This document shows, one piece after another, positions 3,700 through 30,750 of a stretch of DNA of 64,000 bases. Under the pieces are notes generated by a model that saw only the letters and a list, made by a program, of their open reading frames with translations, did not search any database and was not told the origin of the DNA. The first letter of the stretch is position 1, and each line of letters starts with the position of its first letter. Source of the stretch: an uncultured Archangium sp. (GTDB taxonomy: Bacteria; Myxococcota; Myxococcia; Myxococcales; Myxococcaceae); assembly GCA_903905455.1 (NCBI GenBank), contig CAIVGN010000175.1:1-64000 (forward strand), given 5' to 3'. The translations under genes were made by a program, and so were the position numbers.

Positions 3700-4479
3700 A
3701 TGGTTCCGTTCCGCGCGCTCACCCTCCTCGTCGTGTTGTTCCTCGCCCCCGCAGCCCTCGCGGGGCCCCGGGTCTTGATCCTCTGGGATGTGCGCAACGA
3801 ACAGACCAGGGCCCTCGCCACCTCGCTCACCAACAGCGGCGCCGAGGTCGTCTTCAGTGACACCAGCGGCCCGGGCTTCAACGGCGACAACCCGTCCCTG
3901 AAGACCTTCGACGTGGTGGTGCACCTCAACGGCACCACCTGGCAGTCGGACATGCCCCTCTCGGGTCAACGCGCGCTGGTGCGCTTCGTGGAGAACGGCG
4001 GCGGGTACCTCCACCACGAGTGGAACGCCTACCAGCTCTCCGTGGGGCAGTTGCAGGCGCTGCGGCCGTTGATCCTCTTCGACCGCAGCTCGGGGTACTC
4101 GGGCGACATCCAGCTCCAGCGCGTCGAGAGCGCGAAGGTGCACCCGGTCATCTGGGAGGTGCCGAAGACCTTCACCATGACCGGGGGCTGCAACGTGGGG
4201 CACGTGCACGTCTTCGACGAGGAGCCCTCGGTGGTGCTCGCCCGCGACGCCCAGGGGAATGACGCCATCGCGGTGCGGGAGCACGGGTTCGGCCGCATCG
4301 TCGGCTTCCATCACGGGGGGAACTGGTCGTACTCGGTGCCCGGCGCGCTGATGAACAGCAACGAGGCCCGGCGCATGTTCGTCGATGGCGTGCGTTGGGC
4401 GTACGGGTGCGACCCCACGTTCCGCGAGGGGCGCCGAGAGAAGATGTGCGTGGAGATCGCGAAGCGGAAGGGGAAGTGA
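3700..4479 (+). CDS. Secreted ThuA-like domain protein
   Basis: The 259-residue protein starts with a signal peptide (hydrophobic residues 6-20, Ala-Leu-Ala-Gly cleavage region). The mature part begins with a RVLILWD strand and keeps the ThuA/class I glutamine-amidotransferase-like fold pattern: DVVVHLNG, a GGGYLHHEWNAY segment where GATase enzymes carry their nucleophile elbow, and a late GRIVGFHHGGNWS segment. ThuA proteins are linked to trehalose and other carbohydrate use, but catalysis is not established for most members. A GAGAGG ribosome-binding site precedes the ATG. The gene follows the surface protein by 38 bp on the same strand and may be cotranscribed. The family call is fairly safe; the substrate is unknown. 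Confidence 0.7.
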   Translation: MVPFRALTLLVVLFLAPAALAGPRVLILWDVRNEQTRALATSLTNSGAEVVFSDTSGPGFNGDNPSLKTFDVVVHLNGTTWQSDMPLSGQRALVRFVENGGGYLHHEWNAYQLSVGQLQALRPLILFDRSSGYSGDIQLQRVESAKVHPVIWEVPKTFTMTGGCNVGHVHVFDEEPSVVLARDAQGNDAIAVREHGFGRIVGFHHGGNWSYSVPGALMNSNEARRMFVDGVRWAYGCDPTFREGRREKMCVEIAKRKGK

Positions 4480-4627: not shown

Positions 4628-4954
4628 TCAGCGCTCCTTGCCGTACGCGCGCTCGACCCGCGCCACGCGCACTTCGTAGTCGGCGTACCAGGTCTCCCTG
4701 CCCTCGCGCTGCGCCACGCGGTGCTCGGGGTGCGCTCGCCACTGCGCGATCGCCGCCTCGTCACGGAAGTACGCCACCGTGATGCCCACGCCTACCTCCC
4801 CGCGCACGCTGTCCATCCCGAGGAACCCCGGCTGCCCCTCGGCCAGCGCCACCATGCGCTCGGCCATCGCCTCGTAGCCGCGATCTCCCTCGGTGCGCGC
4901 CGAGGTGAAGATGACCGCGAGGTACGGAGGCGCCGGCGTCTTCGCCAGGCTCAC
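4628..4954 (-). CDS. Antibiotic biosynthesis monooxygenase (ABM)-like small protein
   Basis: I place the start at the GTG at 4954, giving 108 residues beginning [16 protein letters not shown]. This GTG overlaps the purL stop codon as GTGA, the usual sign of translational coupling, and it removes the N-terminal extension of the longer frame. The protein shows the dimeric ferredoxin-like ABM pattern: an opening strand AVIFTSA, a helix with [20 protein letters not shown], then [22 protein letters not shown] and a [14 protein letters not shown] tail. Members are small heme-degrading or quinone-type monooxygenases, or simple stress proteins. It is very likely expressed with purL, but I see no functional link to purine synthesis. 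Confidence 0.75.
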
Positions 4955-7900
4955 CCCTCGCACCAAGCCCGCGCGTTCTCGAAGAACCGCAACCACGGGC
5001 TGTCGTCACCCCACGACCGCGGGTGCCACGAGAGCTGCGCAGACCGAATCACCCGCTCCGGGTGCGGCATGAGGATCGTCACCCGCCCGTCGGCCGTGGT
5101 CAGCGCCGTCACCCCGTCCTTCGAGCCGTTGGGGTTGAGCGGGTAACGCTCGGTCGGCGCCCCGCTCGCGTCGGCGAAGCGCGCGGCCACGGTGAAGGCG
5201 TCCGTCCCGTCCAACTCCACGCGCCCTTCTCCGTGCGCCACCGCCACGGGCAAGAGGCTGCCTTCCATGCCCGCGAAGAACAGCGAGGGGGACTTCTCGA
5301 TGTGCACCATCGAGACCCGCGCCTCGAACTGCTCCGAGCGATTGCGCACGAAGCGAGGCCACGCCTCGGCCCCGGGGATGAGCGCCTTGAGCTGCGCCAT
5401 CATCTGGCAGCCATTGCACACGCCCAACGTGAAGGTGTCGGGCCGGTGGAAGAAGGCGCGGAACACCTCGCGCGCGCGCTCGTTGAAGAGCACCGACTTC
5501 GCCCAGCCCCCACCCGCGCCCAGCACGTCGCCGTACGAGAACCCACCGCACGCCGCCAACCCGCGGAAGCTCGAGAGATCGAAGCGCCCCTCGAGGAGAT
5601 CGCTCATGTGCACGTCCACCGCCTCGAAGCCCACGCGGGTGAAGGCCTGCGCCATCTCCAGCTCGCCGTTGACCCCCTGCTCGCGGAGGATCGCCACCCG
5701 CGGCCGGTGCGGCTTCACCGGCGCCCGCACCACGGGGTCGAAGGTCAGCGACGCCGTCAGCCCCGAGAACGTCGAGTCGGTGCGCAGCGCGTGCTCTTCG
5801 TCCGCGCAGCCCGCGTCGTCACGCAGCCGGTGCATGCGCCAGGTGGTGTCGGACCACAGCGCCCGCAGCTCGGTGCGCGTCGCGCGGTAGTGCGCCCCCA
5901 GGGTGATGTGATCGTCGGACCGCGGCGTCGCCACCACGTGCGCCCCGAGATCCAGCGCCTGGCACCGGTGCAGCAGGTCCGCGACGTCCGCCGTGCGCAC
6001 CTGCACCACCGCGCCCAGCTCTTCATTGAAGAGGAAGGGCACCAGGGTCTTCCCCTCGTTGGCCACCAGGTCGAAGCCACACTTCGAGGCGAATGCCATC
6101 TCGAGCAACGTCACCACCAGGCCGCCGTCGGAGCGGTCGTGGTACGCGAGCAGCTTCCCCTCGGCGTTGAGCGACTGGATCAACGCGAAGAAGTCCGCCA
6201 GCTCGCGCGGCGAGTCGACGTCGGGGTGCTGCGTGCCCACCTCGTTGAACACCTGCGCCAACGCGCTGCCGCCCAGCCGGTCCTCGCCGTGGCCCAGGTC
6301 GATGAGCACCAGCGACGTCGGCCCGAGGTCGAGCTGCAGCTCCGGGGTCAACGTCTGGCGCACGTCGGACACCGGCGCGAACGCGCTGACGATGAGCGAC
6401 AGCGGCGCCGTGACCGACTTCCCGTCCCACACCGTGCGCATGGACATCGAGTCCTTGCCCACGGGGATCGCGATGCCCAGCGCCGGGCACAGCTCCGCGC
6501 CCACCGCCTTCACCGCCTCGTAGAGCCGCGCGTCTTCACCCGGGGCCCCGGCCGCCGCCATCCAGTTCGCCGAGAGCTTCACGAAGCCCAGCTGGTCCAC
6601 CCGCGCCGCCGCGAGGTTGGTCAGCGCCTCGCCCACCGCCATGCGCGCCGAGGCCGCCGCGTTCAACACCGCCAACGGCGTGCGCTCGCCCATGGCCATC
6701 GCCTCGCCCGTGGTCACGTCGTAGCTGGTCATCGTCACCGCCACGTCGGCCACCGGCACCTGCAGCGGCCCCACCATCTGGTCCCGCGCCACCAGGCCGG
6801 TGATCGAACGATCGCCGATGGTCACCAGGAAGCTCTTGTCACCCACGGTGGGCAGCAGCAGCACGCGCTTGAGCGCCTCGCGCAGCTCGAACTCGGGCAA
6901 CGGCTTGCCCGGCGAGGGCACCCGCTTCACGTCTCGGCGCATGCGTGGGGGCTTGCCCAGCAACACCTCCAGCGGCATGGCGATGGGCGTGTTCCCGAAG
7001 TGGGCATCGGTGACCTTCAGCAGCCCGTCGTCCGTGGCGTGCCCCAGCACCGCGAAGGGACACCGCTCGCGCCGGCAGAAGGCCTCGAAGCGCGGCAGCG
7101 ACGCGGCGTCGATGGCCAGCACGTAGCGCTCCTGGCTCTCGTTGCACCACAGCTCGAGCGGCGACATGCCGTGCTCGTCGCTGGGGATCTTCCGCAGCTC
7201 GAAGGTCGCCCCACGCCGGCTCTCGTGCACCAACTCCGGCAAGGCGTTCGACAACCCGCCCGCACCGACGTCGTGAATCGAGACGATGGGGTTGGCCTCC
7301 CCCAGCGCGCAGCAGCGGTCGATGACCTCCTGGCAGCGCCGCTCCATCTCTGCGTTGTCCCGTTGCACCGAGGCGAAATCGAGATCCTCCTGGGACGCCC
7401 CCGACGCCACCGACGACGCCGCGCCACCACCCAGGCCGATGAGCATCGACGGCCCACCGAGCACCACCAGCGCTGCGCCCGCGGGAATCGCGCCCTTCTT
7501 CACGTGCCCCGGGCGGATGTTCCCCAGGCCGCCGGCGATCATGATCGGCTTGTGGTACCCGCGCACCGCGCCGTTCACTTCCTGCTCGTAGGTGCGGAAG
7601 TACCCCGTCAACGCCGGCCGCCCGAACTCGTTGTTGAACGCCGCGCCGCCCAACGGGCCGTCCAGCATGATGTCCAGCGCCGAGGCAATGCGGTTGGGCT
7701 TGCCGTGGTCGACCTCCCACGCGCGCTCCGCCCCCGGCAGCCGCAGGTTCGACACCGAGAACCCCACCAGCCCCGCCTTCGGCTTCGAACCCCGCCCCGT
7801 CGCACCCTCGTCGCGGATCTCGCCGCCGCTGCCCGTCGACGCCCCCGCAAACGGAGAGACCGCCGTCGGGTGGTTGTGCGTCTCGACCTTCATCAACAAG

Positions 7901-10924: not shown

Positions 10925-12034
10925 ATGGGCCCCAACCTCATCGCGCTGGCCATTCCGCTGTTCTTCCTGGGCATCGGGGTCGAGCTCGTCGCCGCGAAGG
11001 TGAAGGGGCGCCGGGTGTACCGGCTGGGCGACGCGATGAGCGACATGGGGTGCGGCATCGCGCAGCAGCTGGTGAGCCTCTTCGTGTCCACGGCGGTGTT
11101 GACGGGCGCGTACAGCTGGCTGTCGCAGTTCGCGCCGGTGAAGCTGCCCACCGCGTGGCTGCCGTGGGTGGTGGCGGTGTTCGCCGTGGAGTTCGCCTAC
11201 TACTGGTGGCACCGGCTCTCGCACGAGGTCAACCTGCTGTGGGCCGCCCACGTGGTGCACCACCACAGCGAGGACTACAACCTCGCGGTCGCGCTGCGGC
11301 AGTCGGTCACCACCTGGCTCACGAGCCTGCCGTTCTACCTGCCCATCGCCCTGCTCGGCGTGCCGGTGTTCCCCTTCGCCGTCGTGCTGGGCCTCACCAC
11401 GCTGTACCAATTCTGGATCCACACCGAGCTGGTGCCGCCGCTGGGCGCGCTGGAGAAGTTCTTCAACACCCCGGCGTTGCACCGGGTGCACCACGCCATC
11501 AACCCGCGGTACCTCGACAAGAACCACGCGGCGACGTTCTCGTTCCTCGACCGGCTCTTTGGCACCTGGGAACCGGAGACCGAGCCCTGCGTGTACGGCA
11601 CCACCCGCCCGCTCGAGTCGTACAACCCGCTGTGGGCCCAGGTGGAGCTGTACGTGGACCTGGTGCGCCTGGCCCGGCTCGCGCCCACGCCCGTCGACGC
11701 GGTGAAGGTCTTCTTCGCCTCGCCCGGTTGGCGCCCCGCGTGGATGGGGGAGGCCCCCCGGCGCGACGTCGGCAAGAAGTACGACCCACAGGCCTCGCCG
11801 GCCACGCACCGCTACGTCCTGGCCAACTGGGTGCTGCTGCTGGGCGGGGTCTTCGCCTTCCTGATGTGGGGGACCTCGTTGCCGCCCCTGAAGCAGGCGG
11901 TGACCGTGGGGGTGCTGGTGCTGGGGCTGCTCTCGCTGCCCGCGCTGGTGGAGGGCAGGTCGTGGGCCCGGCCTCTGGAGCTGGCGCGGGTGGTGACGCT
12001 GCCGGGCCTCGTGGTGCTGCTCGCGTTGGGCTGA
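10925..12034 (+). CDS. Sterol desaturase / fatty acid hydroxylase family membrane enzyme
   Basis: 369 residues. This is an integral membrane di-iron oxygenase family (Pfam FA_hydroxylase). The histidine clusters are HRLSH (96-100), HVVHH (109-113) and HRVHH (186-190), with a further His near 166, on a scaffold of about four early transmembrane helices plus three at the C-terminus. The LDRLFGTWEPE segment after the last His box is characteristic of the subgroup that includes alkylglycerol monooxygenase-like proteins. The likely substrate is a lipid (fatty acid, sterol or ether lipid); myxobacteria make ether lipids and hydroxy fatty acids, but the exact reaction is inference. The palindrome upstream suggests repressor control. 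No other lipid gene flanks it. Confidence 0.88.
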   Translation: MGPNLIALAIPLFFLGIGVELVAAKVKGRRVYRLGDAMSDMGCGIAQQLVSLFVSTAVLTGAYSWLSQFAPVKLPTAWLPWVVAVFAVEFAYYWWHRLSHEVNLLWAAHVVHHHSEDYNLAVALRQSVTTWLTSLPFYLPIALLGVPVFPFAVVLGLTTLYQFWIHTELVPPLGALEKFFNTPALHRVHHAINPRYLDKNHAATFSFLDRLFGTWEPETEPCVYGTTRPLESYNPLWAQVELYVDLVRLARLAPTPVDAVKVFFASPGWRPAWMGEAPRRDVGKKYDPQASPATHRYVLANWVLLLGGVFAFLMWGTSLPPLKQAVTVGVLVLGLLSLPALVEGRSWARPLELARVVTLPGLVVLLALG

Positions 12035-19127: not shown

Positions 19128-19175
19128 GGCTGGTGGAGATTGCAGCGGCCATGCCCGCGACTGAGGCCGCGGCCG

Positions 19176-20759
19176 TCAGCGTCTCGACTTCTTCCGTCGC
19201 GCGCCCGGCAGCGGTCCCTCGAGCCAATCCAGCGGGCGCTCGAGCACCGAGACCTCGGTGAGCACCACCCCGCGCGAGACAGTCGCCTTCGCGGGGTCGA
19301 GCAGCCTCACCTCGCCGCTCTTCTCGACCTGCGCCACCAGCCATTGCCAGCCATAGCGCGCGCCATCGGCGTGCATGCGGTCCCACGCGGGCTTCGGAAA
19401 CCGCAGCGGCAGCGGGCTGCGCTTGACCTGCACCGCCAGCACCCGGGCCCCGCGAGTCGCCAGCAGGTCGAAGGCGCCGCGCGAGCCGCGCGATTGGTAC
19501 ACCAGCTCGAAGCCGAGGTGCACCAGGCGCTGCGCGACGGCGAGCTCGGCCTCGTCACCGACCAGCTTCATGGGCAACACCGAGCCCCCGGGCTGCCGCC
19601 ACTGAAGCCAGAGCGCGAAGGTCGGGTCGGCCAGGCGCCACTGGCCACCCTCGTCGCGCACCACCGCGTCGCCCAGGCGTTGCAGGTAGCCCACCGCCGC
19701 CGCGGGGGAGGCGCCCATGGCCTTCGCCACCCCGCCCAGCGCGAGGGGCCCCGGCGCCAGCGCGTTGAGGGCCGCCGCGAGCGTCGTGGCGCGCCCCACC
19801 AGCCGTTGGAACTCGTTGAGGAAATAGAGCGAGAGGCGCCCGGTCTCCGAGAACAACACCCGCTGCAGGGCGGCGCGAAGGCGGGCGTCGGCGCGGCCGG
19901 GTTCCTCGGCCAGCACCTCGCCGAGCACCTGGAGATAGAAGGGACTGCCTCCAATCACCTCGAACACCCGCCTGGCCAGGGGGGCCGCGATGGCGTGGGG
20001 CCCCTCGGCGCTCGCGCCCACCAGCAACTCGACCGCGTGGGCCTCGTCGAAGCCACCGACCTCCATCACCTCGAAGTGCTGGAAGAAGGGCGAGCGCTCG
20101 GAGGTCGCGAGTTCGAGCAGCGTGCTGCGCGCCGAACCGGAGACCACGTAGGTCGTCCGCCGGTGCCGTTGCCACACGCTGCGCAGGACCGCCATGACGT
20201 CAGGCGCCTGCTTCGCGGTGGAGAGCGCGGCCAACTCCTGGAACTCGTCGAGGGCGATGACCAGGTGCTCCCCCAGGGCCTCGGCGAGCCGCTCGGGGAG
20301 GTTGAGCATCGCACTCAAGGACGGGCCCTCGAGCGGCGCCTGGGGGAGCTCCCCCAGCGCGGTCTGCAGGGCCGCGGGCAACGCGCGGAACCGCGGCGAC
20401 TGCACCAGCGCCGCGCGCCAATCCGCGGGGACGTCGGCCTCGGCCGACAGCGAGCGCCCGGCGTCGCGGGAGAGCAGCACCTCGACGGACTGCACGGCGA
20501 TCAGCCGGAACACCTCCAGGGAGACCGGCATCGACTCGAACACGTCGACCACCACGAAGCCCGGGGCGCCGGCCTTCGCGCGCACGCGGCGCTCGACCTC
20601 GCGGAGCAGGCTCGTCTTGCCCACCTTGCGTGGGCCGACGAGACACAGCCACTTCGGTACGCCGCGCGCGAGCTTGTCGACCACGCCCTCGAGGCGCGCC
20701 AACTCGACGGTGCGGTTGAAGAACCCCTCGGGCGAGGCGGGAATGCTGGCGGAGAACAT
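19176..20759 (-). CDS. Archaeal-type AAA ATPase fused to a PD-(D/E)XK-like nuclease domain
   Basis: 527 residues. The Walker A motif is GPRKVGKTS (42-50) and Walker B is HLVIALDEFQEL (165-176, Asp171-Glu172), with a sensor-like YVVSGSARS near 204-212, as in the Pfam ATPase_2/AAA_34 type of stand-alone ATPases. A winged-helix region follows (about 325-390). Residues 400-480 look like an archaeal Holliday-junction-resolvase/PD-(D/E)XK fold: GDEAELAVAQRLV helix, GAFDLLA (Asp431), then LAVQVKR (Gln444, Lys446), the Q-x-K variant of the motif. The ATPase type is common, with unknown roles in defence, recombination or DNA metabolism. It is preceded by a six-element hexamer array and followed by two small membrane-protein genes. 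Confidence 0.82.
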   Translation of the reverse strand: MFSASIPASPEGFFNRTVELARLEGVVDKLARGVPKWLCLVGPRKVGKTSLLREVERRVRAKAGAPGFVVVDVFESMPVSLEVFRLIAVQSVEVLLSRDAGRSLSAEADVPADWRAALVQSPRFRALPAALQTALGELPQAPLEGPSLSAMLNLPERLAEALGEHLVIALDEFQELAALSTAKQAPDVMAVLRSVWQRHRRTTYVVSGSARSTLLELATSERSPFFQHFEVMEVGGFDEAHAVELLVGASAEGPHAIAAPLARRVFEVIGGSPFYLQVLGEVLAEEPGRADARLRAALQRVLFSETGRLSLYFLNEFQRLVGRATTLAAALNALAPGPLALGGVAKAMGASPAAAVGYLQRLGDAVVRDEGGQWRLADPTFALWLQWRQPGGSVLPMKLVGDEAELAVAQRLVHLGFELVYQSRGSRGAFDLLATRGARVLAVQVKRSPLPLRFPKPAWDRMHADGARYGWQWLVAQVEKSGEVRLLDPAKATVSRGVVLTEVSVLERPLDWLEGPLPGARRKKSRR

Positions 20760-20778
20760 GGAGACCCCGGAGCGGACT

Positions 20779-20824
20779 TAGCAATCTTGCTAAGTAGCAG
20801 ACTTGCTAAGTAGCAACCTTGCTA
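20779..20824. promoter_or_regulatory. Array of six alternating TAGCAA/TTGCTA hexamers, 8-bp period
   Basis: Hexamers start at 20779 (TAGCAA), 20787 (TTGCTA), 20795 (TAGCAG, one mismatch), 20803 (TTGCTA), 20811 (TAGCAA) and 20819 (TTGCTA), each separated by two bases. Every neighbour is the reverse complement of the last, so the block is a set of overlapping palindromes. It lies 20 bp upstream of the ATPase-nuclease start and 26 bp from the end of the lipoprotein gene at 20850-22862. It is AT-richer than its surroundings. It could be an operator or a DNA target of the adjacent ATPase-nuclease. Confidence 0.85.
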
Positions 20825-20849
20825 CTCGGTCGTCAACGCGGCCCCCGGC

Positions 20850-22862
<2,013 letters not shown>

Positions 22863-22911
22863 CAGGCTGGTGATCTGCCCCACCTGCGCGCGGGCGCAAG
22901 TCGCGGGCCGG

Positions 22912-25370: not shown

Positions 25371-25506
25371 GCCCGGGGTCGCGCCCCCTGAGATCCCGCA
25401 CCCTTGGCAGTCGCGTCCGGCGGCCTGAGGACGTCGCCCAGCGCGCGGGAGTGTCGGCTGCGTGACGACATTGCAGGGCGCAGGGAGATCGGCCAAGGGG
25501 GTCGCC

Positions 25507-28500
25507 ATGCGATGGTCCTCTCGGCTGGTCGTCTTCGGGTCGGTGGCGGTGGTGGCGGCGTGCTCTCCTTCACCCGTCGTGACGCAGACCCTCGAGGTCA
25601 CCCCGACGACCCTCGCGCTGCAGATCGGTGAAGCCCGGCCGGTGACGGCGGAGACGGTCAGCGGCACGACCCGAAGCGCGGCGACGGGCGCCACGTGGAC
25701 CTCGAGCGACCCGGCCATCGTTGCGGTCAGCACCACGAACGCGGGCAGCGCCACCCTGCAAGGTGTCTCGGCGGGGGCGGCGACCGTCACCGCGACGCTC
25801 AAGGGGAAGAGCGCCACGATGGCCGTGACGGTCAGCGCACGCCCGGTGACGCTCAGCCGCATCGAGCTCACGCCAGCCAACGCCACCGTGGCCAAGGGCG
25901 GCACGCTGCAGTTCACCGCGACCGGCGTCTTCTCCGACGGCACCACCCAGGACTTCACGGCGAGCGCCACGTGGGCCTCGAGTGACGAGACGAGGGCGAC
26001 CGTGAGCACCGCGGGCCTCCTCAGCGGGTTGGCCCCGGGCACCACGGAGGTCACCGCGGCGAAGGACGGATTGACCGGTCGCCTCACGGTGAGCGTCACC
26101 TCGGCCGCGTTGCTGGGCCTCGACCTGACGCCCGCCGCCCCCACGCTGAGCGTCGCCGCGAGGCAGCAGTTCACCGCCACCGCGCGCCTCTCGGACGGCA
26201 CCACGCAGGTGGTGACCAACGAGGCCGCGTGGAGCAGCGCCGAGACGACGGTCGCCTCGGTCGACGGCGCCGGCATGGTCACCACCCACGCCGCGGGCAC
26301 CTCGGTGCTCACCGCGACCCTCAACGGCCTGACGGGGACGACGACCCTCACCGTGTCTGCCGCGACGCTCACCAGCCTCGAGCTGAGCCCCGCGGCGCCT
26401 TCGCTCGCGCGCGGCAGCACCACGCAACTGACCGCCACGGGCCGCTACTCCGACGGCAGCTCGCGCGACGTCACCGGCCAGGCGACGTGGCTCTCCGCCA
26501 CCCCGGCCGTGGCCAGCGTCTCGTCGACGGGCCTCGCCACCGCGCTCACCGTGGGCACCTCGTCGATCTCCGCCACGCTCGGCAGCCTCAGCGGCAACGC
26601 CACCCTCACGGTCACCGCCGCGACCCTCGTGGCTCTCGCGGTCACGCCCGCCGCGACCTCGCTCGCCAGGGGCCGCACGCAGCAACTCACCGCCACCGGC
26701 ACCTACAGCGACGCCTCGATGCAGGACCTCAGCGCGCAGGTCACGTGGACCAGCGGGACGCCGGCCACGGCCACCGTGAGCGGCACCGGACTGGTCACCG
26801 CCGCGGAGGTCGGGACGTCCACCCTCACCGCCACGCTCGGGGCGAGGAGCGGCACGGCCACCCTCACGGTCACGCCGGCGGAGCTCGTCTCCATCGCCGT
26901 CTCGCCCGCCACGGCCTCCATCGCCCGGGGCCGCACCCAGGCCTTCGTCGCCACGGGCACCTACTCCGACAGCTCGACGCAGAACCTCAGCGCGACGGCG
27001 ACGTGGACCAGCGGGACGCCCGCGGTCGCCTCGGTGACTTCGACCGGCGTCGCCTCGGGCCTCGCCGTGGGCACCTCGCTCGTCACCGCCACGCTCGGCA
27101 CGGTGAGCGGCAACGCCACCCTGACCGTCACCCCCGCGGTGCTGGTGTCGCTCGCGGTCACCGCGTCGAACCTCTCCATCGCCCGGGGCCGCACGCAGCA
27201 GTTCGTCGCCACGGGCACGATGTCCGACGGCACCACGCAGAACGTCAGCTCGACGGCCACGTGGACCAGCGGCACGACCGCCACCGCCACCGTGAGCACG
27301 ACGGGCCTCGCCACCGCCGTGGCGATCGGCACCTCGCTCTTCACCGCCACGTCCGGCGCCGTGAGCGGCAGCGCGACGCTGACCGTCACCATCCAGGAGC
27401 TGGTGTCCATCGCGGTCACCGCCCCGAGCCTCTCCATCGCCAGGGGTCGCACGCAGCAGTTCGTCGCCACGGGCACGTACTCCGACAACTCGACGCAAGT
27501 GCTCACCTCGGTGGCCACCTGGGCCACGGGCACGCCGGCGACGGCGACGGTCAACCCCACGGGCCTGGTCACCGCGGTGGCCGTGGGCACCAGCACCGTC
27601 ACCGCCACCTCCAACACGGTCACCGGCTCGGCGATCCTCACCGTCACGGCCGCGGAGATCGTGTCCATCGCGGTCACCGCCTCGAGCCTCTCCATCGCCA
27701 AGGGCCGCACCCAGGCCTTCGTCGCCACGGCCACGCTGTCTGACGGCACCACCCAGAACGTGAGCACCACCGCGACGTGGGCCAGCGGGACGCCCGCCAC
27801 GGCCACCGTGAGCAACGTGGGTCTCGCCACCTCCGTCGCCGTGGGCACCTCGCTCGTCTCGGCCACGGTCGGCGCGGTGAGCGGCAGCGCCACGCTGACC
27901 GTCACTCCCGCGGAGCTGGTCTCCCTCGCGGTGACCGCCTCGAGCCTCTCCATCGCCCGGGGCCGCACGCAGCAGTTCGTCGCCACGGGCACCCTGTCCG
28001 ACGCCACGACGCAGAACCTCACCGCGACCGCCTCGTGGACCAGCGGCACGCCGGCCACCGCGACGGTGAGCAGCACCGGGCTCGCCACCGCCGTCGCCGT
28101 CGGGACCTCGCTCGTCACCGCCACGCTCAACTCGGTGAGCGGCAGCGCGACGTTGACGGTCACCCCGGCGGAGTTGGTCTCCATCGCGGTCACCGCCTCG
28201 GGCCTCTCGGTCGCCAGGGGACGCACGCAGCAGTTCGTCGCCACGGGCACGCTGTCTGACGCCACCACCCAGAACCTCACCGCCACCGCGACGTGGACCA
28301 GCGGCGCGCCCGCCACGGCCACCGTGAGCAGCACGGGCCTCGCGAGCGCACTCGCCGTGGGAACCTCGCTCATCACCGCCACGTTCAACGCGGTGAGCGG
28401 CAGCGCCACGCTGACCGTCACCCCGGCGGCCCTCGTGTCCATCGCGGTGACGCCCGCCGGCCCGGTGCCGTTGAACCAGGGCACCACGGTGCAGTTGACC

Positions 28501-30750
28501 GCGAACGGCACCTATTCGGACGCGACGGTGGTCAACATCACCGCGCTCGCGACGTGGACCTCGGGCACCCCCGCCGCGGTGACCGTCTCGAACCTCCTCG
28601 GCTCGCAGGGCCTGGCCACCGCGGTCGCCGGGGGCTCGTCCACGGTGAGCGCCACGCTCGACGGCGTCAGCGCGAGCACGGTGGTGACGGTCACGGTGAA
28701 GACGCTGGTGTCCATCGCGGTGACGCCGGCCACCAACACCCTCGCGGGAGGCACCACGCAGCAGTTGACCGCCACGGGCACCTACTCTGACGCGACGACG
28801 CAAGATCTCTCGACGAGCGTGACCTGGGCCTCGACCGTCACCAACACTGCGACCGTCTCGGGCACCGGGTTGGTGACGGCGGTGAACGCGGGCAGCACCT
28901 CCATCAGCGCGACGCTCAACGCGATCTCCGGCAGCGCCGCGGTCACGGTCACCGCGCCGGTCACGCTGACCAGCATCGCGGTCACCCCTGCCACGCCGTC
29001 CGTCGCCAGGGGCCGCACCCAGCAGTTCGTCGCCACGGGCACGTACTCGGATGCCTCGACGCAGAACCTCACCGCCACGGTCACCTGGGCCTCCTCGGCC
29101 GCGGGCACCGCGACCATCGCCGCCGCCGGCCTCGCCACGACGCTGCTCGCCGGCACCACCACCATCTCGGCCACGCTGGGCGCCGTGAGCGGCAGCACGC
29201 TGCTGACCGTCACCGCGCCGGAGGTGGTGTCCATCGCCGTCACGCCCGCCACGCCCACGCTCGCGAAGGGCCGCACGCAGGCCTTCGTGGCCACGGCGAC
29301 GATGACCGACGCGACGACGGTCAACGTCTCGGCCACCGTCACCTGGGCGTCGAGCGACCCGGCCACGGCGACCATCACCGCGGCGGGCCTCGTCACCTGC
29401 GTGGAGGTGGGCAGCAGCACCATCAGCGCGACCCTGGGCGCGGTCCTGGGCAGCACGCCGCTCACCGTCACGCTGGTGGCCCTCGAGAGCATCACGCTCA
29501 CCGGCCGCACCACGGTGGCCACCAACGGCGCCGTGAAGCTCACCGCGACGGGCACTTACTCGGACGCCACCACGTCCGACGTGACCAGCACCGCGACCTG
29601 GGCCAGCGACAACGCGGCCGCGGGCGTGTCGAACCTCGCCGGCGTGCGCGGCGTGGTGAAGGGGCTGGCGGCGTCGACCACCACCCCGAACATCACCGCC
29701 ACGCTCGGAGCCGTGGTGGGGACGCTCGCGGTGCGCGTGCGCGACACCAACGCGGCGCGCGTCGGGCGGTGCGGCCCGGGCGTGGTCATCAGCCAGATTT
29801 ACGGCGGTGGCGGCAACGCGAGCGCGACCTACCGCAACGACTTCGTCGAGCTCCACAACCCGGGACCGAACACCGTGAACCTCGTCGGCCTCTCGATCCA
29901 GTACGCGAGCGCCACGGGCACGAGCTGGAGCCCGCTGGCCTTGACGGGCTCCATTCCGGCCGGTGGCTACTACCTCGCGCTGCTGGCGACCGGCGGCGCG
30001 GTGGGCCTGGTGCTCCCGACGGCCGACATCACCAACACCACCATCAACCTGTCGGGAACGGCGGGCAAGGTCGCGCTGGTCAACGGGACGGCGGCCCTCT
30101 CGGGCGCCTGCCCGACCGGCAACCTGCTCGACCTCGTGGGCTACGGCGCCACGGCCAGCTGCGTGGAGGGCACGTTCGCCGCGGCTCCCACGGCCAACAC
30201 CGCCTGGATGACCCGTGGCGCCTCGGGCTGCGCGGACGCCAACGCCAACAACCTCGACTTCTCGGTGGGAACGGTCACCCCGCGCAACAGCGCCACGCCC
30301 GGCATCCTCTGCAGCTGCTCGGTCAACGAAACCTCGGTCGCCGAAGAGCTCCACTACTGCAACCTCCAGTTCCCGGCCTCCACGGGCCCCGCGGCGGGCA
30401 CGGTGAGCGAGGGCATCTACGCGCGGGTCTTCCAGGCGGGCGTCACCGAGCCCGCGGGCTTCGACCCGAGCATCACCGTCGAGGTGGGCTTCGGCGGCGC
30501 GGGCGTCGACCCCACGGCCTTCACCACCTGGAGCTGGTGGCCCACGAGCGCCAACGTGCAGGTCGGCAACGATGACGAGTACCAGGGCGTCTTCGTCGCG
30601 CCGTCGAGCGGGAGCTACAACTACACGTCCCGCGTCACCCGCGACGGCGTGAACTGGACCTCCTGCGACCTGAACGGCGCCGGCAGCAACGCGGGCAACG
30701 ACTTCCTGCCCTTCGTGGCGGGCCAGTTGGGCGTGCTCACGGTGCCGTGA
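25507..30750 (+). CDS. Giant secreted lipoprotein: 16 Ig-like (BIG2) repeats plus a lamin-tail domain
   Basis: I chose the ATG at 25507: CAAGGGG precedes it and the product then begins with a lipoprotein signal (VAVVAAC). The 1747 residues hold 16 BIG2-type repeats of about 86 residues, each with SIAVTPA...ARGRTQQFVATGTYSD...TATVSxTGLATAVAVGTS...SGSATLTVT. Repeats 5-11 are nearly identical. A lamin-tail domain follows (GVVISQIYGGGGNASATYRNDFVELHNPG), then a C-terminal beta-rich domain (ITVEVGFGGAGVDPTAFTTWSWW). BIG2 arrays act as stalks in adhesins, so this probably projects a C-terminal head from the cell. It ends one base before the convergent peptidase gene. The head's partner is unknown. 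Confidence 0.88.
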   Translation: MRWSSRLVVFGSVAVVAACSPSPVVTQTLEVTPTTLALQIGEARPVTAETVSGTTRSAATGATWTSSDPAIVAVSTTNAGSATLQGVSAGAATVTATLKGKSATMAVTVSARPVTLSRIELTPANATVAKGGTLQFTATGVFSDGTTQDFTASATWASSDETRATVSTAGLLSGLAPGTTEVTAAKDGLTGRLTVSVTSAALLGLDLTPAAPTLSVAARQQFTATARLSDGTTQVVTNEAAWSSAETTVASVDGAGMVTTHAAGTSVLTATLNGLTGTTTLTVSAATLTSLELSPAAPSLARGSTTQLTATGRYSDGSSRDVTGQATWLSATPAVASVSSTGLATALTVGTSSISATLGSLSGNATLTVTAATLVALAVTPAATSLARGRTQQLTATGTYSDASMQDLSAQVTWTSGTPATATVSGTGLVTAAEVGTSTLTATLGARSGTATLTVTPAELVSIAVSPATASIARGRTQAFVATGTYSDSSTQNLSATATWTSGTPAVASVTSTGVASGLAVGTSLVTATLGTVSGNATLTVTPAVLVSLAVTASNLSIARGRTQQFVATGTMSDGTTQNVSSTATWTSGTTATATVSTTGLATAVAIGTSLFTATSGAVSGSATLTVTIQELVSIAVTAPSLSIARGRTQQFVATGTYSDNSTQVLTSVATWATGTPATATVNPTGLVTAVAVGTSTVTATSNTVTGSAILTVTAAEIVSIAVTASSLSIAKGRTQAFVATATLSDGTTQNVSTTATWASGTPATATVSNVGLATSVAVGTSLVSATVGAVSGSATLTVTPAELVSLAVTASSLSIARGRTQQFVATGTLSDATTQNLTATASWTSGTPATATVSSTGLATAVAVGTSLVTATLNSVSGSATLTVTPAELVSIAVTASGLSVARGRTQQFVATGTLSDATTQNLTATATWTSGAPATATVSSTGLASALAVGTSLITATFNAVSGSATLTVTPAALVSIAVTPAGPVPLNQGTTVQLTANGTYSDATVVNITALATWTSGTPAAVTVSNLLGSQGLATAVAGGSSTVSATLDGVSASTVVTVTVKTLVSIAVTPATNTLAGGTTQQLTATGTYSDATTQDLSTSVTWASTVTNTATVSGTGLVTAVNAGSTSISATLNAISGSAAVTVTAPVTLTSIAVTPATPSVARGRTQQFVATGTYSDASTQNLTATVTWASSAAGTATIAAAGLATTLLAGTTTISATLGAVSGSTLLTVTAPEVVSIAVTPATPTLAKGRTQAFVATATMTDATTVNVSATVTWASSDPATATITAAGLVTCVEVGSSTISATLGAVLGSTPLTVTLVALESITLTGRTTVATNGAVKLTATGTYSDATTSDVTSTATWASDNAAAGVSNLAGVRGVVKGLAASTTTPNITATLGAVVGTLAVRVRDTNAARVGRCGPGVVISQIYGGGGNASATYRNDFVELHNPGPNTVNLVGLSIQYASATGTSWSPLALTGSIPAGGYYLALLATGGAVGLVLPTADITNTTINLSGTAGKVALVNGTAALSGACPTGNLLDLVGYGATASCVEGTFAAAPTANTAWMTRGASGCADANANNLDFSVGTVTPRNSATPGILCSCSVNETSVAEELHYCNLQFPASTGPAAGTVSEGIYARVFQAGVTEPAGFDPSITVEVGFGGAGVDPTAFTTWSWWPTSANVQVGNDDEYQGVFVAPSSGSYNYTSRVTRDGVNWTSCDLNGAGSNAGNDFLPFVAGQLGVLTVP
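25590..29745. repeat. Tandem array of 16 BIG2-coding repeats, about 258-bp period
   Basis: The most similar units keep exact register: GCACGCAGCA occurs at 27191, 27449, 27965 and 28223, and the equivalent GCACCCAGGC at 27707, all multiples of 258 bp (86 codons) apart. Outer units are more diverged. The near-identity of the central units at DNA level points to recent tandem duplication or gene conversion. Confidence 0.9.

Follow-up and report, generated by a model that had tools for sequence, protein, structure and literature searches.

A probably cognate dyad array at an ATPase-nuclease gene of Archangium: possible operator and possible end of a single-gene mobile unit

Introduction

Why is a gene for an ATPase fused to a nuclease preceded by a strictly regular array of short palindromes? 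The question is raised by a 64,000-nucleotide stretch of DNA from an uncultured Archangium sp., referred to here as the window, and it touches a larger group, as ATPase_2-type AAA+ ATPase-HTH-nuclease genes occur widely as accessory genes and have no known role. Below, we describe the array, the protein and their relatives. We put at about even the chance that the array is cognate to the protein and serves both as a probable autoregulatory operator and as an end of a single-gene mobile unit. In the literature that we searched, mostly freely readable papers, no description was found of arrays flanking such genes.

Results and Discussion

An array of three dyads upstream of an ATPase-nuclease gene

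The features of the locus are as follows (window coordinates; coordinates within the gene come from the alignment or the AlphaFold2 model where stated).

19128..19175, no strand: right flank past the ATPase stop, without an array (versus 6 of 15 homologues with one)
19176..20759, minus strand: gene for a 527-aa protein, AAA+ ATPase with winged helix and predicted PD-(D/E)XK (Hjc-like) nuclease
19215..19568, minus strand: predicted Hjc-like nuclease domain, residues 398-515, with invariant E405, D431 and Q444-V-K446
19632..19838, minus strand: winged-helix region, residues 308-376 (AlphaFold2 model)
19665..19706, minus strand: predicted recognition helix, residues 352-365 (AlphaFold2 model)
19689-19691, minus strand: residue 357, Gly in the window protein, Asn or Arg in other motif classes
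20232..20261, minus strand: Walker B region, VIALDEFQEL, residues 167-176 (alignment)
20610..20636, minus strand: Walker A, GPRKVGKTS, residues 42-50 (alignment)
20760..20849, no strand: 90-bp intergenic gap holding the array, from the ATPase start to the stop of the TSP3/LTD gene
20779..20824, no strand: array of three TAGCAANNTTGCTA dyads with a 16-bp period (units 20779-20792, 20795-20808 and 20811-20824)

On the plus strand, 20779-20824 reads as the hexamers TAGCAA, TTGCTA, TAGCAG, TTGCTA, TAGCAA and TTGCTA, separated by tc, ag, ac, ag and cc. These are the six alternating hexamers with an 8-bp step and a single mismatch of the original prediction, although the array is better described as three 14-bp dyads with a 16-bp repeat (TAGCAANNTTGCTA(AG)) than as six independent hexamers. 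TRF detected it independently, with a period of 16 and 2.9 copies. At up to two mismatches, TAGCAANNTTGCTA has three matches in the window, all of them within the array, versus 0.08 expected from shuffled sequences, which bears out the claim of a regularity beyond chance. Outside the array, the 8.6-Mb source genome contains no match at up to one mismatch. A second match in the same genome (contig C102) is coding sequence for an LTD domain, and its reading as an array was rejected.

The array lies on the 5' side of the minus-strand ATPase gene, as had been predicted, and the gap to the ATG is 19 bp (20760-20778) rather than the 20 bp given earlier. The upstream neighbour is a TSP3/lamin-tail (LTD) surface-protein gene (20850-22883, minus strand) that is conserved in relatives. 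At the window array, no sigma-70-like promoter was recognised and no terminators, T-runs included, were found. Elsewhere in the window, positions 25462-30750 encode a repeat protein of 1762 aa, very long and rich in Ala and Thr, whose DNA has tandem repeats of 258 bp.

An Orc1/Cdc6-like ATPase joined to a Hjc-like nuclease

The earlier assignment of an AAA ATPase with a PD-(D/E)XK domain was right, and the nuclease can now be placed more sharply as Hjc-like. All 15 family members match the Pfam families AAA_16 and ATPase_2, with GKTS and DEFQE invariant across the alignment, and match PDDEXK_5 only below its cut-off. The AlphaFold2 model of the full protein (mean pLDDT 84.6) comprises the ATPase, a winged helix at about residues 308-376 and a nuclease from about residue 400. 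A Foldseek search with this model returned SSO1545 (2fna) and PAB2304 (2qen) first, followed by Cdc6/Orc1 on origin DNA and ORC. When the nuclease domain was modelled alone (pLDDT 86.7), the top 27 structural matches were archaeal Hjc Holliday-junction resolvases. Residues E405, D431 and Q444/K446 are invariant in 15 of 15 homologues. Both domains are conserved, and a dN/dS of 0.15-0.24 indicates purifying selection on the gene. As judged from these models, the protein is most probably an SSO1545/Orc1-Cdc6-like AAA+ ATPase with a winged helix and a nuclease nearest to archaeal Hjc folds.

Arrays are found at the ends of all homologous genes

Our genome collection covers about half of the known species, mostly as draft or metagenome assemblies. 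In it, the gene was found in 10 of the 96 genomes of the family, with 15 copies in total. Extending the search to 195 Myxococcota genomes added just one broken remnant, a degenerate ATPase gene in another family of the same order (L046, G138:C42). Among viral contigs, phages and plasmids, no full-length relative was found.

The expectations that the array would precede this ATPase family in relatives and would vary in copy number both held: a 16-bp-period dyad array stands before the start codon in all 15 homologues, ending 7-60 bp from it, with one to three clear units. Six of the 15 have, in addition, two units of the same motif arrayed behind the gene, within 6 bp of the stop codon in five copies and at +95 in one. 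Counting class-matched dyads at up to two mismatches yields 36 upstream (in all 15 copies) and 12 downstream (two units in each of the six), that is, 48 at gene ends versus one elsewhere in 163 kb around these genes. Front and rear arrays are identical in direct order over 35 bp in L037, 24 bp in L030 and 20 bp in L029.

A degenerate two-unit pattern (up to one mismatch) matched in seven of the 195 Myxococcota genomes, with no control matches. Every match but one was at this gene family, and arrays are not scattered beside unrelated genes. The possible exception is a solo array (TAGCAAGCTTGCTACGTGGCAAGCTTGCCA; L102 40-69, G149:C345) near a contig start, where it precedes an amino-acid permease gene; this genome belongs to another family, and no close ATPase homologue was found in it.

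Array letters change in step with the predicted recognition helix

The arrays fall into three motif classes. TAGCAA/TTGCTA occurs in the window and five other copies, TTACAA/TTGTAA in three, and the forms TGGCAA or AGGCAA (half-sites TTGCCA/TTGCCT) in six, with the arrays of L031 and L034 imperfect. When the 96 half-sites are written as TTGxyz, T2 and G3 are invariant (96/96) and xyz is class-specific; T1 varies in 25 of 96, mostly from T to C and often on one side only. Each motif class corresponds to a clade of the protein tree, and these clades have full support. Only alignment columns 95, 148 and 357 are fixed within classes with three different residues. Residue 357 lies in the predicted recognition helix and is Gly with CTA, Asn with TAA and Arg with CCA/CCT; in the usual chemistry, an arginine faces a GG/CC pair.

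This co-change suggests that the protein recognises its own gene. Because the helix and motif change together and the array is confined to the neighbourhood of the gene, the ATPase-nuclease is the likely binder of its own array, a reading that these comparisons strongly support. As the classes coincide with clades, the match at residue 357 rests on few independent changes and is support, not proof.

Copies occupy different sites, some with empty counterparts

Comparison of flanks places the 15 copies at about ten different sites. Neighbours differ between copies, and close paralogues occupy unrelated sites. In the alignment of the G092 site, the match to the left flank stops at query base 4937 and that to the right flank starts again at 6693; where G092:C347 has 1755 bp, these flanks are separated by 8 bp (G091) or 16 bp (G090). 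The breakpoints at empty sites fall at the ends of the array-gene unit, and no target duplication was seen at this clean one. In G089, G093, G094 and G095, the same site holds a stretch of about 1.7 kb, which we rejected as another ATPase copy as it carries a different, cytochrome-like gene. Its presence in four genomes of the genus means that the G092 site has its own history, with gain or loss of another gene.

At the site shared by G010 and G008, 2674 bp (G010:C64) stand against 6 bp in G011 between the same two flanking genes. At the one shared by G092 and G095, the ATPase gene is absent from G090 and G093; here the G095 flank AGGTGACGCCC, present in G093 without the ATPase, supplies the ATPase stop codon from host DNA. 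A direct duplication on both sides (26 bp, one mismatch) is seen in L031 only. Read from these alignments, the family shows the precise presence and absence at several sites that is a feature of mobile elements, a pattern with which both gain and loss are compatible. No recent movement was seen, all copies being at least 10% different in protein, and none of the genomes with the gene contains two near-identical copies.

At the locus of the window, G010 lacks the gene: the upstream gene is followed by other sequence without an array and, further on, by a LysR-type gene that has a 5' region of its own. The stop codon of the ATPase gene and the start codon of the LysR gene overlap (ATGA) at this locus in G011 and G008. 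In the window genome, the ATPase gene has neither the LysR gene nor the gene downstream of it at its side, and its right side joins a later neighbour. We considered the LysR-type gene behind two copies as cargo and rejected this, since in G010 this gene belongs to the site itself and has a 5' region of its own. The upstream neighbour of the window copy is common to two congeners, from which we read this copy as an old insertion that probably kept only its promoter array.

Two further observations concern the surroundings of the G010 copy of the TTACAA class (L032). A VapBC-like toxin-antitoxin pair lies directly behind it (6601-7258), and G008 and G011 have similar DNA at other places. The second is a dispersed repeat of about 110 bp (11217-11327), with dozens of copies in G010 and G011 and few in G000 and G008.

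A possible mechanism

In the mechanism that we propose, a pair of winged helices would bind each TAGCAA-NN-TTGCTA dyad, and binding at the array would hold down expression of the protein's own gene. Self-repression is suggested because the array covers the promoter region. The operator for autoregulation named in the original prediction is therefore supported as far as promoter position and the match between helix and motif go; repression itself we infer.

The comparisons further suggest that array, gene and array form a compact unit travelling together. In its complete form, the gene between two direct-order arrays would be a single-gene mobile unit of about 1.65-1.75 kb, a proposal partly borne out by the several sites, the empty site and the arrays at both ends. 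We conjecture that the Orc/Cdc6-like AAA+ part draws the two arrays together by assembling on them, and that a junction or cruciform arising there is the target that the Hjc-like nuclease cuts or resolves, by which the unit would be excised or inserted; movement by its own nuclease is thus put forward as a hypothesis. After insertion, selection would act on the promoter array only, and the rear array would be lost in many copies, including that of the window locus. It is missing in nine of 15 copies, so the two ends are not needed for persistence.

Clade-specific motifs, rear arrays in some copies and an array and gene that form a unit at different sites all go beyond the original prediction. 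Tentatively, and with clearly less than even confidence, we suggest that they define a new class of single-gene mobile element. In it, an Orc/Cdc6-like AAA+ ATPase would be joined to a Hjc-type nuclease, direct palindrome arrays would mark both ends and movement would need no known transposase or recombinase; sister lineages would have switched array letters and one helix residue and so acquired specificities that differ from one another inside a single genome. Should the unit drive its own movement, a nuclease of resolvase type and an ATPase of origin-binding type would together power a mobile element whose specificity follows a simple code. The DNA site, the probable reading residue and the unit ends can all be named from sequence here, which makes binding, autoregulation, cutting and movement directly testable.

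Alternative explanations

The array may be an operator and nothing else. An accessory, perhaps anti-phage, gene would repress itself and spread by horizontal transfer and homologous recombination; the rear arrays would be spare regulatory or roadblock copies, and there would be no element of its own. The upstream array is present in 15 of 15 copies and the downstream array in just six, which fits this account, as do weak matches to the candidate defence families PDC-S27 and PDC-S01. It also stays alive because, on plasmids of Bacteroides, Phocaeicola and Arcobacter, distant ATPase-winged-helix relatives that lack the nuclease tend to carry dyads ahead of their starts. However, most rear arrays stand between the gene and a neighbour in convergent orientation, a position without a promoter that they could control, empty-site boundaries coincide with the array-gene unit, and close paralogues sit at unrelated sites; we regard an operator alone as possible but rather unlikely. 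The self-recognition tag of the original prediction is also a possible reading. Here the nuclease would be held on its own arrays and then released, or kept from cutting its own DNA, in defence or selfish competition. This agrees with the nuclease and STAND/AAA+ architecture, with paralogues within one genome always differing in motif (G008, G009, G010 and G092) and with the annotation of the related archaeal arCOG03166 as 'likely involved in defense (or some plasmid gene)' (PMC4158269). Yet the different-motif pattern comes from just six within-genome pairs and is not significant, a defence-island context was not seen and there is no gene for a protective modification, so that a tag or sensor of self and non-self appears improbable.

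Repeated sites beside an initiator-like gene are the usual layout of Orc1/Cdc6 or Rep-type origins. The protein could act likewise, as Orc1/Cdc6 or as a plasmid Rep on iterons, making a tiny circle that replicates or amplifies, and its fold matches include Cdc6/Orc1 bound to origin DNA. This is very improbable, as none of the plasmids and phages searched carries the full gene and neither an AT-rich unwinding region nor another replication gene is linked to it. Still more remote is that RNA hairpins in the leader and at the 3' end, acting as attenuator or terminator, explain the repeats instead of a protein-binding DNA array. Three small hairpins can form in the transcribed strand (z = -2.84), and the symmetric changes between classes also fit stems. 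Against this, TG/CA is invariant at the loop-proximal end, the innermost bases change on one side only, uncompensated, in 22 of 48 dyads, and a T-run terminator is lacking; the even 8-bp phasing and the match with the protein helix fit DNA binding.

Comparison with known systems

By shared architecture, the closest named family appears to be arCOG03166, described as 'AAA+ superfamily ATPase fused to HTH and RecB nuclease domains' and considered likely to serve defence or to be a plasmid gene (Makarova et al. 2014, PMC4158269). It and related archaeal ATPase_2 proteins, for which the structures SSO1545 (2fna) and PAB2304 (2qen) are available, share with the myxobacterial family the order AAA+, winged helix and PD-(D/E)XK, the Pfam families ATPase_2/AAA_16 and a patchy, accessory distribution. 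However, they are known mainly from archaea, and the nuclease of the myxobacterial family is Hjc-like; the literature searched contained no description of cognate gene-end arrays for them. Hjc resolvases share the fold of the nuclease domain and the E-D-(Q/E)xK active site, but the myxobacterial nuclease, at about 15-22% identity, is fused to an AAA+ ATPase and a winged helix.

Archaeal Orc1/Cdc6 with origin recognition boxes resembles the family in its AAA+ and winged-helix domains and in repeated sites at its own gene, the latter shared by plasmid Rep proteins with iterons. Unlike both, the myxobacterial family has an extra nuclease, symmetric dyads that switch between classes and, in some copies, arrays on both sides, with no sign of an origin. 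In REP/REPIN-RAYT systems too, a single gene lies between short palindromic repeats whose type matches the subfamily of that gene. RAYTs are HUH/Y1 tyrosine enzymes, whereas our protein is AAA+/PD-(D/E)XK, and REPs are dispersed in many copies, whereas our arrays are found at the gene only; membership was rejected on both grounds. In Tn7-type transposons, the PD-(D/E)XK nuclease TnsA works with the AAA+ ATPase TnsC on repeated end sites. The myxobacterial unit differs in having one fused protein with a Hjc-like nuclease, direct instead of inverted end arrays and no DDE transposase TnsB. We rejected a Tn7-like transposon, as two-array copies have only one gene between the arrays and no DDE transposase.

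Repeats were also seen around distant ATPase-winged-helix genes on plasmids. On a Geobacter anodireducens plasmid (CP014964.1, L118), a perfect 32-bp direct repeat, CTCCCTATTTTGTCCACATGGACGGATTAGGG, flanks a nuclease-less gene of this kind (2826-2857 and 4195-4226). In the Bacteroides, Phocaeicola and Arcobacter plasmids (L119, L136 and L137), the dyads before the start codons have arms of 7-8 bp, and in L137 an identical dyad, TATTTAAAATTAAATA, occurs twice upstream of a gene for an ATP-binding protein.
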